Part shown: in pieces, positions 4,931-47,406 of the stretch
Numbering within the stretch: position 1 is the first letter of the stretch
Layout: every line of letters starts with the position of its first letter
NCBI RefSeq assembly: GCF_002871345.2
Contig: NZ_CP136964.1
Location: 434,001-498,000 of the forward strand
Reading direction: 5' to 3'
DNA: 64,000 nucleotides
From: Nosocomiicoccus massiliensis
GTDB taxonomy: Bacteria; Bacillota; Bacilli; Staphylococcales; Salinicoccaceae
Position numbers and translations under genes: made by a program
Notes under the pieces: model-generated
Databases searched by the model: none
What the model was told of the DNA's origin: nothing
What the model saw: the letters and a program-made list of their open reading frames with translations, nothing else

Positions 4931-5007
4931 CAATAATTTTTCATCTTTTTATATTTATAAGACAAAATGTAAAAAGTATAGTATACTTCGGTTGTAATCA
5001 AATATTA

Positions 5008-5155
5008 AGCACATGGGGAGCTTCGGCTGAGAAAGATAAGACCTGACCCACAACCTGATCTAGGTAATGCTAGCGTAGGTGTTGTGTATATGCATGCTTA
5101 TTTTGCATGTGTTTATTTCACAAGCCTCCTCTAACGGAGCTTTTTTTGTGCAAAT
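5008..5155 (+). promoter_or_regulatory. TPP (thi-box) riboswitch with terminator
   Basis: The aptamer (about 5008-5101) contains the diagnostic GGGGAGC..GGCTGAGA, GACCC and ACCTGATCT..AATGCTAGCG elements. A terminator, AGCCTCC-loop-GGAGCT plus seven Ts, follows at 5126-5152. Thiamine pyrophosphate binding would favour termination and repress tenA-thiW. Confidence 0.93.
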
Positions 5156-15880: not shown

Positions 15881-15937
15881 TGATATTGTTCTATATTTTA
15901 TGATTTTAGTTTTGATGTACTGGATTAGTACCGTTAT

Positions 15938-16141
15938 TTAACACTTTTGTGCTGTTTCTATGAAATTTTGTTAGATAAAAAATTATATTTAACACTTTTT
16001 AGTTATTTCGACGCTTTTTTGTTAGATAAAATGATATATCTAACAAAAATCAGCTCGAACAATCAAAATATGTTCATTATCCTGAGATATCTAACATATT
16101 CCGAAAATTTTTGTTAAATATCCGGATTATCAGCTAGCTTT
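15938..16141. repeat. Array 1 of a 51-bp-period palindromic repeat
   Basis: TTAACAC, TTAACAC, CTAACAAA and CTAACAT recur at 15938, 15989, 16040 and 16091, exactly 51 bases apart. The core of each unit is a palindrome of the form TTTGTTAGATA-n-TATCTAACAAA (best at 16016-16049), with partly conserved linkers such as CAGCTCGAACAAT. The array ends at the stop codon of the 150-aa gene. Array 2 at 17087-17275 is built from the same unit. Confidence 0.75.
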
Positions 16142-16686: not shown

Positions 16687-17085
16687 TTAATAGAAATTTA
16701 AGTCATACGTATCTAATACAAATTGTGGGATTAAAAACCGTGTTGTCATGAGTGGATCGACGACTTGACTGATTTGTGCTTGACCGACTGCGCTTAGTAA
16801 CATCCCAGCTTCGTCTAATTCTAAGTCAGTATTTTTAGCTAAGTAATGAACCGCTTGTTTTGTCGCTTCTTTCATCGACTCATCGAGCGTATCTTTTGAA
16901 ACGATAAACGAAAGTCCTTCATCATATTTGACGATTGGATGTTCGATCTCATTATCTTTAATCACTTCAACTTTTAAAACGGCAGAACCAGCAATTTCAA
17001 CGCCTGTACCACAAATTTCACCATCTGCCATCGCACCGTGAAAATCACCTAAGCATAATAACGCACCTTCTGTACGAACTGGGAG
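16687..17085 (-). pseudogene. Acetamidase/formamidase-family gene, C-terminal fragment
   Basis: The readable frame begins at an in-frame stop at about 17086 and encodes PVRTEGALLCLGDFHGAMADGEICGTGVEIAG and on to NFY (about 130 residues). GDFHGAMADGE-CGT is the metal/active-site region shared by acetamidase/formamidase (FmdA_AmdA) proteins, whose GD-H-A-Q-GDGE-CGT motif it resembles; family members are about 300 residues. The N-terminal half is missing and the break coincides with the edge of repeat array 2. A start at 17031 exists but would give only a fragment lacking the first half of the active site. I read it as a decayed gene that once hydrolysed short-chain amides. Confidence 0.75.
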
Positions 17086-17086
17086 T

Positions 17087-17275
17087 TATTTAACAAAATA
17101 GCTCACAAAATGTTAGATATCTGGATATATCTAACAAAAAGGAGTTGAAAAAAACAAAATTTGTTAATTATCCTGATATATCTAACAAAAACCAGGTCGA
17201 AAAACTAAAATTTGTTAATTATCCGCAGATATCTAACAAAATCGCACTTTTTTTGTTAGATAAATACCTAAATCA
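17087..17275. repeat. Array 2 of the 51-bp-period palindromic repeat
   Basis: CTAACAAA occurs at 17131, 17182 and 17233 (exactly 51 apart), with a shortened first unit at 17091 and a half unit TTTGTTAGATAAA at 17251-17264. Each palindrome reads TTTGTTA-ATTATCC-x-GATATATCTAACAAA, and linkers (AGGAGTTGAAAAAAAC, ACCAGGTCGAAAAACT) are similar to each other and to array 1. It separates the acetamidase fragment from the abi gene. The remaining bases to 17341 hold no gene. Confidence 0.8.
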
Positions 17276-17341: not shown

Positions 17342-18214
17342 TTATATGGTTTCTAAAATATTTGTCCAGTTTTCAGGAAAACCTAATTGAGTAATATCCA
17401 CTTCTTCATACTCATTAAAAAGTTCTGAGATATTTGTTAATAGTATTTTCGTTAAAACTTTATCATTTAAAATTTTACAAATCACATAAATAGCTGCAAA
17501 AGTAGTATTGCCATATTTTATTTTCTTTCGATCCGCTTTTGATAGTTTAAAATGAATAGGTAAATGTCTCTTATATAGTCTACCAAAGTGCGCACAGATA
17601 TTTCTTAAAGTAGATAAAGCATATAACCAGTTTCTAATATAAAAACGGTTGTTGTTAAAAGTAATTGCAATTCCATCTTGATCATTATCATGTAAGTTCG
17701 AGTATATTTTTGAAAGTAAACTGAATGAAGTGACTTCAATTACAACCCAAATTGGAAATATGGATTTATATTTTTCTTTATGATGAATAATAAATAGTTC
17801 TTTACTTCTATGTACTTCATGATTAATTTGAGTTCTCATATCGTTGAAATAGTCTAAATTTTTAAAGTTAGATTCATCTAGATATGATGTTGAACCATAT
17901 TTATGGGCCAAATAGTAGGAGATTTTAGTACGAAAGGAAACTTCAATTTTCTCCAATAATGATAGTAATTCTAAACGTAACTTTCTATCAAATTCATACA
18001 ATTTATATATATGATTAAATGAAGCATCTTCATAAAATATATCATTACTCTTTAAAGTTAAAGTATAGGCGCTAAAACGATAATAATTAATTTTACTAAG
18101 TATATCTATAGCATATGATTCATCTTCTATAATAAGTCCACGTTTTTTTAATAAATCGATTTGTTCCTCATATGTTTTTGGTTGTTTAATATGCATATTA
18201 TCACCGTTTACCAT
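17342..18214 (-). CDS. Abi_2-family (AbiD/AbiF-type) HEPN protein, putative abortive-infection RNase
   Basis: This 290-residue protein has the Abi_2 layout: KQPKTYEEQIDLLKKRGL (about 10-27), SKINYYRFSAY (40-50), YEFDRKLRLELLSLLEKIEVSFR (73-95), WVVIEVTSFSLLSKIYSNL (156-174), and LRNICAHFGRLYKR (203-216). R204 and H209 in RNICAH form the R-x4-H signature of HEPN ribonucleases. AbiD/AbiF proteins abort phage infection in lactococci; AbiF-type proteins have been linked to non-coding RNA partners and to the ancestry of Cas13 (from memory). The start at 18214 is set by AAGGGGG at five to six bases; the longer frame to 18262 begins inside a terminator hairpin. A small RNA with its own promoter lies directly upstream. 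No other defence gene is adjacent; downstream is repeat array 2. Confidence 0.9.
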   Translation of the reverse strand: MVNGDNMHIKQPKTYEEQIDLLKKRGLIIEDESYAIDILSKINYYRFSAYTLTLKSNDIFYEDASFNHIYKLYEFDRKLRLELLSLLEKIEVSFRTKISYYLAHKYGSTSYLDESNFKNLDYFNDMRTQINHEVHRSKELFIIHHKEKYKSIFPIWVVIEVTSFSLLSKIYSNLHDNDQDGIAITFNNNRFYIRNWLYALSTLRNICAHFGRLYKRHLPIHFKLSKADRKKIKYGNTTFAAIYVICKILNDKVLTKILLTNISELFNEYEEVDITQLGFPENWTNILETI

Positions 18215-18236
18215 AAGGTCCCCCTTATCAAGATAT

Positions 18237-18289
18237 AAAAAAAGTCCCACCATGGTACGCATTGTTAAGAGGCGTGGTGGGTTCTGTTA
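18237..18289 (-). ncRNA. Small RNA upstream of the Abi protein (candidate antitoxin RNA)
   Basis: On the minus strand a transcript starting near 18288 would contain CCCACCA (18275-18281 complement) pairing with TGGTGGG (18246-18252 complement), an inner ACGC/GCGT stem with loop CTCTTAACAAT, and then a run of seven Ts (18237-18243). The unit has its own promoter and ends 22 bases before the abi ATG, which has a separate ribosome site. No ORF fits. The arrangement promoter - structured RNA - terminator - HEPN gene is that of RNA antitoxins, with some read-through giving the toxin message. Confidence 0.65.
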
Positions 18290-18294
18290 CTTAT

Positions 18295-18323
18295 ATAATA
18301 AGCTTTTTATTTCACTTTGTCTA
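18295..18323 (-). promoter_or_regulatory. Promoter of the small RNA / abi unit
   Basis: Minus strand -35 TAGACA (18318-18323), 17-bp spacer (18301-18317), -10 TATTAT (18295-18300). It lies after the terminator of the GMC gene, so the unit is independently transcribed. Confidence 0.7.
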
Positions 18324-33522: not shown

Positions 33523-33745
33523 AATCCCGCCCTACTAAATAGGACGGGATTACCGTGGTACCACCTAAATTTGGCATAAATATGCCACACTTAATTATGA
33601 TTAACGCTCACTAAACGTCTATCTTTACTATACATTCAAGATAAATTCTACACGTAGACTACTTCATATCACTATGACTATGCTCTCACCAACCGCATAT
33701 TCTCTGAAGACATTGATGACATTACTACTTCTACTTTTCATATTT
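33523..33745 (-). promoter_or_regulatory. Valine T-box leader of valS
   Basis: On the minus strand the T-box AGGTGGTACCACGG (33553-33566) precedes the terminator AATCCCGTCCTATT..AGGGCGGGATTTT. Upstream Stem I contains GGTTGGTGAGAGC and, near GATATGAAGTAGTC, valine codons GTA/GTC in the specifier position. Uncharged tRNA-Val should favour read-through into valS-folC. Confidence 0.9.
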
Positions 33746-33780
33746 AACTACGTTAATTTTATTGTATTCACGCGTTTAAG

Positions 33781-45430: not shown

Positions 45431-45437
45431 CACATTG

Positions 45438-45476
45438 AAACAGGTTCGAAAACTTCCCTGTATAAAAAACTAAGGA
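45438..45476 (+). promoter_or_regulatory. preQ1-I riboswitch controlling queT
   Basis: ACAGGTTCGAAAACTTCCCTGT forms the short stem and is followed by ATAAAAAACTAAGGAG. The A-rich tail ending in CTAAGG is diagnostic of class I preQ1 aptamers. The Shine-Dalgarno AAGGAG is part of the pseudoknot, so binding should block translation of queT. (Sequence quoted in two pieces.). Confidence 0.9.
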
Positions 45477-45484
45477 GAATTACA

Positions 45485-47332: not shown

Positions 47333-47406
47333 CGTCCCGGGAGGGATTCGAACCCCCGACCGATGGCTTAGAAGGCCATTGCTCTATCCAGCTGAGCTAC
47401 CGGGAC
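47333..47406 (-). tRNA. tRNA-Arg (anticodon UCU)
   Basis: The 74-base cloverleaf has acceptor GTCCCGG/CCGGGAC, D arm GCTCAGCTGGATAGAGC, anticodon stem GGCC/GGCC-type with loop CTTCTAA (anticodon TCT, reads AGA), and T arm GGGGGTTCGAACCCC. CCA is not encoded. It lies alone, transcribed leftward. Confidence 0.96.

Follow-up and report, generated by a model that had tools for sequence, protein, structure and literature searches.

What is the role of a chromosomal gene for an Abi_2-type protein when a small structured RNA with its own promoter precedes it, and why do phages carry the same RNA without the gene? The question is raised by a 64,000 nucleotide (nt) stretch of the Nosocomiicoccus massiliensis genome (contig NZ_CP136964.1, positions 434,001 to 498,000), called the window throughout, whose minus strand holds such a gene, abi, and such an RNA between positions 17342 and 18323. 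We conclude that this is very probably a chromosomal AbiF toxin-antitoxin (TA) unit working like a type III system. It also seems likely that several phage families carry the abiF antitoxin RNA without the toxin, as ready-made inhibitors of host AbiF ribonucleases, which would amount to a widespread RNA counter-defence. The phage side matters more than the window unit alone.

The abi gene and its upstream RNA

The features of the unit are as follows.

17342..18214, minus strand: abi coding sequence, AbiD/F (Abi_2) HEPN ribonuclease-type toxin, 290 residues, ATG at 18214
17588..17605, minus strand: HEPN motif RNICAH, R204-x4-H209, residues invariant in the aligned proteins
18220..18226, minus strand: ribosome site AAGGGGG, read from the sequence
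18237..18288, minus strand: predicted small RNA of 52 nt (predicted ends) with AACAGA leader, hairpin and seven-U tract, the antitoxin being its own terminator
18245..18281, minus strand: abiF RNA motif, Rfam RF03085, 44.4 bits, gathering threshold 37
18295..18300, minus strand: -10 box TATTAT, six bases ahead of the first A of AACAGA, same spacing in relatives
18318..18323, minus strand: -35 box TAGACA, consensus match only

The initial annotation, made from the sequence alone, had described a 290-residue Abi_2 protein with the HEPN signature RNICAH, and the open reading frame (ORF) and its homologues bear this out. In the Pfam search that it had proposed, the protein scored 164.1 bits against PF07751 (Abi_2), far over the cut-off of 25.6, which places it in the AbiD/F family. 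The PADLOC AbiD profile gave 310.8 bits, and an NCBIfam search with the protein returned no match. By sequence (phmmer) the nearest solved chain is 8vz6, with an E value of 5.9e-31. An AlphaFold2 model built with 32 sequences (mean pLDDT 93.2, pTM 0.88) was compared using Foldseek, and the same entry, ‘PbAbiF dimer bound to ncRNA’, was the sole PDB match at E ≤ 0.001 (TM 0.84), so that the ToxN-type fold of type III toxins was not found. R204, N205, C207, A208 and H209 are unchanged across the 32 aligned proteins and the 290 residues hold one R-x4-H motif; motif and fold thus also assign the protein to AbiD/F. The longest ORF has 306 residues and begins at an ATG within the hairpin, and the 290-residue start is the ATG at 18214. 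Gene calls of 306 residues, which start inside the abiF RNA (18214-18262), are probably wrong, and overlong copies occur as P0001, P0004 and P0007.

Upstream of the gene, the hairpin, the inner stem, the seven Us and the separate ribosome site that had been read from the sequence are all present. The stems are CCCACC/GGTGGG and, inside it, CGC/GCG, and the seven Ts (18237-18243) end 22 bases before the ATG. The match to RF03085 (E 1.6e-6 in 1.5 kb) exceeds the gathering score, which makes this an abiF RNA; it is not new, RNA family and protein family both being already catalogued. The predicted fold has an energy of -13.0 kcal/mol (z -2.27, with 10 of 200 shuffles equally good). That the hairpin goes beyond chance is concluded from the Rfam match, from the score of our own covariance model R1 (81.3 bits at 18235-18288, the window being one of its 24 training rows) and from pairing that is kept through two-sided changes. 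R1 matches the window once, and tandem antitoxin repeats of the type III kind are thus lacking there. The promoter that had been proposed, TAGACA-17-TATTAT (18323-18295), agrees with the consensus at 10 of 12 positions. Nine promoter-like sites were found between 17300 and 18450 against 8.2 expected in shuffles, so the scan alone proves nothing; the promoter is supported because relatives have the -10 box at the same distance.

Conservation of the RNA among bacterial loci

The bacterial loci used for comparison are the best 80 of at least 590 stretches (572 confirmed), and so represent the nearest relatives found rather than a census. R1 was built from the window and 23 of these loci (alignment A5, 24 rows), leaving out L026, L031, L042, L055 and L067 of the 29-row alignment A4, in which a subgroup sat one base off. 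A covariance test upstream of homologs had been proposed in the initial annotation, and in A5 all 216 pair cells are standard, with 19 changed on both sides and none unpaired, compared with 24-44% paired when the partners were slid by one to three columns. Three of the nine pairs covary, while the inner three are invariant and hence uninformative. Compensatory changes of the abiF RNA (RF03085) are thus present in the 24 rows.

R1 found 77 matches at E ≤ 1 in the window and L001-L098 together (755,846 bases). Lack of conservation of the hairpin had been set beforehand as a possible refutation, and the hairpin was found in 71 of the 80 homologous loci at E ≤ 1 and in 64 at E ≤ 0.01. Every match with E ≤ 0.01, 67 with the window included, lies directly upstream of abi on the same strand; two weaker ones (E 0.15 and 0.57) are located elsewhere. 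Without these two and one cut by a contig end, 74 matches were inspected. The stem is followed by a T-rich tract (at least 5 of 8) in 73 of them, against 13% of control positions, a count that is biased upward because R1 includes tail columns. The -10 box, which lies outside the model, is found (at least 5 of 6 bases) 4-9 bases before the leader in 50 of the 74, against 7% of control positions, and in 41 of these 50 the spacing is exactly six bases. Besides the stem pairing, the sequence of leader and loop is conserved, in loci that were picked by protein and not by RNA. The usual unit is a promoter, an AACAGA-like leader, a hairpin and a U tract, giving an RNA of about 50 nt whose structured part is the terminator; that it is a single self-terminating hairpin follows from the U tract and -10 spacing conserved across the 80-locus set. 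Three bacterial abi genes (L037, L039 and L057) have two upstream abiF RNA matches, each followed by a somewhat T-rich stretch.

Probable mode of action of the window unit

The family, the fold, the RNA structure and the conserved order of promoter, leader, hairpin and U tract are direct observations, and the window has the parts that match a system studied in Clostridioides difficile R20291, for which reason the same working may be assumed. According to the accessible part of that report (PMC12373285), the RNA, RCd22, starts at a SigA-type promoter and most transcripts stop before abiF. Deletion of RCd22 raised abiF 17-fold and slowed growth. AbiFCd is neutralised by RCd22 supplied either in cis or in trans, the latter with abiF expression unchanged, and RNA and protein co-purify. 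Changes of R202 and H207, the residues that match R204 and H209 of the window protein, abolish toxicity. Similarly AbiFr binds PbAbiF and blocks its single-strand RNase, as stated in the accessible part of a review (PMC12737573). For the window unit we infer RNA-protein binding, toxicity and neutralisation from these C. difficile and PbAbiF relatives.

By this analogy one promoter would yield the RNA of about 50 nt in excess, its hairpin folding and terminating transcription, and the released RNA would bind the AbiF HEPN dimer and keep the ribonuclease quiet. Occasional read-through of the terminator would supply toxin mRNA, a suggestion of the initial annotation that fits both the family and the available C. 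difficile experiments (PMC12373285). If the RNA supply were disturbed, be it by phage takeover of transcription or by RNA decay, the toxin would be freed, AbiF would cut RNA and growth would stop. Phage as the trigger is something that we infer only. As in type III systems, the antitoxin RNA lies upstream with a terminator before the toxin gene, here with the antitoxin hairpin itself as terminator. The window unit is an ordinary and apparently intact one of known kind.

Some observations weigh against a type III-like TA unit. Nine of the 80 loci gave no R1 match, of which L036, L081 and L093 carry the motif by eye, L036 and L093 having it twice with a separate terminator. R1 matched in none of the 18 loci L001-L018, which derive from protein matches in 15 of 100 related genomes (L002 being a mere contig-end piece of the same abi). 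Antiphage activity of AbiFCd also remains undemonstrated in the accessible text (PMC12373285), in which plasmid-borne lactococcal AbiF is described as phage resistance and the role of chromosomal copies is called unknown. A search for RF03085 in the 100 related genomes found it in none, but with 59 candidates scored per genome and 0 of 14 controls found this result is uninformative.

Toxin-less abiF RNAs in viral contigs

IMG/VR was scanned with two forms of the conserved core, yielding at least 120 and 27 stretches and hence at least 147 hits; all IMG/VR counts of orphan (toxin-less) and linked copies below are among the matches listed. Among these 147, 14 have abi downstream, 15 are undecided with fewer than 900 bases downstream, and 118 are orphans. 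A first tally with a hidden Markov model from alignment A1 gave 13 linked, 15 short and 119 neither, and was later revised: L248, whose open frame starts slightly before the motif, was reassigned to the linked copies. L206 was considered as linked on a 15.8-bit match and rejected, Pfam Abi_2 being absent from its record. A wider phage search listed 93 records, for the most part Salmonella phages matched over about 20 bases as expected by chance, and few of its hits were used.

Host-type antitoxin RNA is present in phages that lack the toxin. Besides inhibition of host AbiF, such copies could be leftovers from abi genes that were lost, or could have a part in phage gene control, with no mimicry, an explanation that we regard as unlikely. 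When the 900 bases after each motif were searched in translation against 198 AbiF proteins, abi-like coding was detected in all 14 linked copies, in 2 of the 118 orphans and in 0 of 118 shuffled sequences. Three of the 118 orphans keep a piece of abi, namely L206 (the tail survives), L231 (the start is broken) and L241 (an abi start, by eye), as expected of leftovers; in the other 115 no abi trace was found. Toxin loss from a complete unit with survival of the RNA does occur, and antitoxin RNA beside a deleted or broken abi, as in these three, shows one way in which toxin-less RNAs can come about. Pfam Abi_2 was found in none of 31 whole IMG/VR orphan records (31 of the 118, which may be fragments) and in none of 16 annotated phages. 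Of the 15 records initially classed as linked, the same search was positive in 14, with 13 above the cut-off.

Bacterial copies without abi are also known, as leftovers would predict. The class A core occurs at 13 places in 398 bacterial genomes of the phylum, and nine of these places have an Abi_2 ORF downstream; the four that do not (L265, L269, L270 and L274) may be prophage copies or decayed units. However, class A orphans make up 101 of 109 decidable viral hits (8 linked) against those 4 of 13 in bacteria (Fisher p = 1e-6), and 73 of 80 in viral contigs (7 linked) once identical contexts are merged (p = 6e-6).

Structure, position and host match of the orphan RNAs

The scan fixes the core, and the orphan loop is therefore no evidence, leaving the outer stem as a fair test. 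At least six outer pairs form in 89 of 110 distinct contexts (linked included), compared with a mean of 10.5 and a maximum of 22 for shuffled partners; the count includes pattern-fixed bases, one 5' base in class A and three in class B. The 100 class A orphan loci yielded 78 distinct R1 matches, in which 99.4% of cells are paired and 129 have changed on both sides; such pairing speaks against leftovers. Covariation in these matches is 0.486 versus 0.126 shuffled, in an alignment that is fitted to the model and leans towards it. Of 13 orphan contigs tested, 10 score at or above the RF03085 cut-off, as do 6 of 16 annotated phages. Orphans below it are recognised by R1 only, contigs at 57.9 down to 28.6 bits and phages down to 14.3, the last being Stenotrophomonas phage Stm18, a weak case (E 0.061). 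The sequences give good support to the orphans being real abiF RNAs and true orphans.

Toxin-less copies are often found beside or inside tRNA genes, and some phages carry copies of two sequence classes together; neither observation is readily explained by leftovers or gene control. A tRNA on the same strand stands no more than 100 bases away from 19 of 86 distinct orphans, compared with 4.8% of random positions in the same loci, and from none of the 15 hits classed as linked at that stage. The RNA of Bacillus phage P59 stands between tRNA-Asp and tRNA-Pro in a 15-tRNA array, that of phiNIT1 between tRNA-Asn and tRNA-Gln (some 500 and 1,000 bases away), and that of Rhizobium phage RHEph21 76 bases before tRNA-Asn. 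In the T7-like Aeromonas phages PT2, T7-Ah and PZL-Ah8 it is located between the connector and capsid-assembly genes. These Aeromonas phages and Bacillus SBSphiJ are among the annotated carriers, whose groups we take to be virulent. Nine loci have two copies, and five of them (L113, L145, L168, L242 and L254) pair a GCCUCU/AUGCG form with an ACCUCU/GUG form. Skipping-rope RNA (Rfam RF02924) also occurs beside tRNAs in phiNIT1 and P59 (L255 3505-3575; L260 2429-2498). In P59 it directly precedes the orphan abiF RNA; possibly it is a further phage decoy RNA.

A -10 box at the abi-linked spacing is kept in 9 of the 78 orphan matches (2% of control), and 36 of the 78 have a strong U tract. Most orphan RNAs are therefore probably expressed from phage operons, and those with a strong U tract could terminate transcription, which is in favour of a part in phage gene control.

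The base before the ACC segment appears to follow the host. All 40 readable Bacillota RNAs (by record title; 3 unread) have T, G or A there and all 5 readable ones of Proteobacteria have C (3 unread), while Bacteroidota are mixed, with T in four, G in one and C in one (3 unread); the count is confined to these three groups. In phages, by eye, four lineages with Bacillota hosts have G or A and six with Proteobacteria or Campylobacterota hosts have C (p = 0.005), in a test that is post hoc and small, includes the weak Stm18 and leaves out L263, which has no host. The orphan RNAs of SBSphiJ7 and SBSphiJ3 (L256/L257, about 2501-2543) are 93% identical over 43 bases, with differences only in and just after the ACC segment, which may face the protein.

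Taken together, the conserved, toxin-less and host-type character of the phage abiF RNAs makes antitoxin mimicry their simplest account.

Comparison with known systems

Pseudo-ToxI of phage PhiTE (PMC3475682) is a proven precedent for a phage RNA that mimics a type III antitoxin, and Racrs (PMC10651486) are likewise phage-borne mimics of a host defence RNA. Unlike the RNAs described here, pseudo-ToxI acts on ToxIN and Racrs act on CRISPR-Cas, and AbiF mimicry is not stated in the accessible parts of these two papers. Cyanophage S-CREM1 (PMC9964418), described as lytic, also carries an abiF RNA (51.6 bits). Its authors think that the small RNA is functional during infection and, in the accessible part of the paper, propose no role, nor does the accessible part of a review that repeats the finding (PMC12197685). 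These two were the only accounts of abiF RNA on the phage side among the papers listed, but subscription papers were mostly outside the search and this is no proof of novelty.

The window unit resembles AbiFCd-RCd22 of C. difficile prophage phi027 in its Abi_2 HEPN protein, upstream RF03085 RNA, SigA-type promoter, read-through and ribosome site. In the available description (PMC12373285), however, RCd22 has two motifs and a separate terminator (98 nt main form, 132 nt full length), whereas the window RNA of about 50 nt has one motif that is the terminator. Because the common form among the nearest 80 loci is one self-terminating motif, RCd22 is not typical of them, and the two-motif design is not the type form. 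The window protein shares with PbAbiF-AbiFr (8vz6) the fold and the HEPN residues, with 27% identity in the structural alignment. With ToxIN and classical type III systems the unit has in common an RNA antitoxin upstream of an RNase toxin and ratio control by read-through; it differs in having HEPN in place of the ToxN fold and in lacking tandem repeats.

The window adds one more lineage to the known AbiF/abiF-RNA units. If the mimicry reading is true, phage mimics would be indirect evidence that phages meet AbiF units as a pressure in nature, and some small RNAs of phage tRNA regions would gain a function. Toxin-less abiF RNAs in phages of hosts such as B. subtilis BEST7003 make the role of chromosomal AbiF, and an answer of phages to it, directly testable.

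Alternative explanations and chromosomal setting

The hairpin might be a mere cis attenuator of abi that is inactive in trans. We consider this improbable. A terminator-like hairpin directly before the gene agrees with it, but leader and loop are conserved along with the stem in the protein-picked loci, RCd22 acts in trans with abiF expression unchanged (accessible part of PMC12373285), and phages carry the RNA without abi.

On one side of the unit is a GMC oxidoreductase gene, whose nearest named relatives (77-78%) are those of Lentibacillus, Salinicoccus and Jeotgalicoccus, and on the other an FmdA-like ORF at 16687-17031 (26.7 bits, slightly short of the Pfam cut-off, 27). The FmdA-like acetamidase ORF is truncated, about 600 bases of G001, the nearest genome compared, being missing at 17084/17086. 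In G001 FmdA is longer and the contig ends inside abi; its 46-residue abi match was considered as a gene remnant and rejected, as it is that contig end. In two sister genomes (G002 and G003) about 280 bases separate the flanking genes, FmdA and abi both being absent from the gap, and the unit is thus patchy within its genus. This absence and the truncated neighbour could point to a decaying remnant in the window, which is nevertheless very improbable: nothing is lost from the invariant residues, the RNA pairs or the signals, and the abi end shared with G001 differs at 1 of 142 coding bases in surroundings where aligned stretches are 90-94% identical.

Intergenic repeats containing TTTTGTTAGATATATC are present at 15935-16120 and 17084-17268 of the window (5 matches against 0.13 expected), and repeats resembling them are found close to the place in G002 and G003 that lacks abi. 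In G001 an IS3-type transposase-like ORF pair (by eye; L099 1-1142) stands beside the GMC gene, where the window has abi. As another G001 contig ends inside abi, an insertion or deletion at this place is possible but unproven.

The initial annotation had called the RNA an antitoxin or guide; antitoxin fits the family and the C. difficile experiments, while a guide with which AbiF finds target RNAs, as in Cas13, is hardly credible, since 33 of 54 positions reach at least 1.5 bits with no variable spacer-like segment (longest run below 1 bit in the first 46 positions, one), the 290 residues hold one R-x4-H motif and not the two per chain of Cas13-like proteins, the predicted end of the RNA is at its own U tract, and the RNAs of relatives act as antitoxins (accessible part of PMC12373285).

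Other RNAs of the window, at 33537-33747, 45435-45479, 5004-5099 and 47333-47406, are an ordinary T-box leader, PreQ1 and TPP riboswitches and a tRNA.
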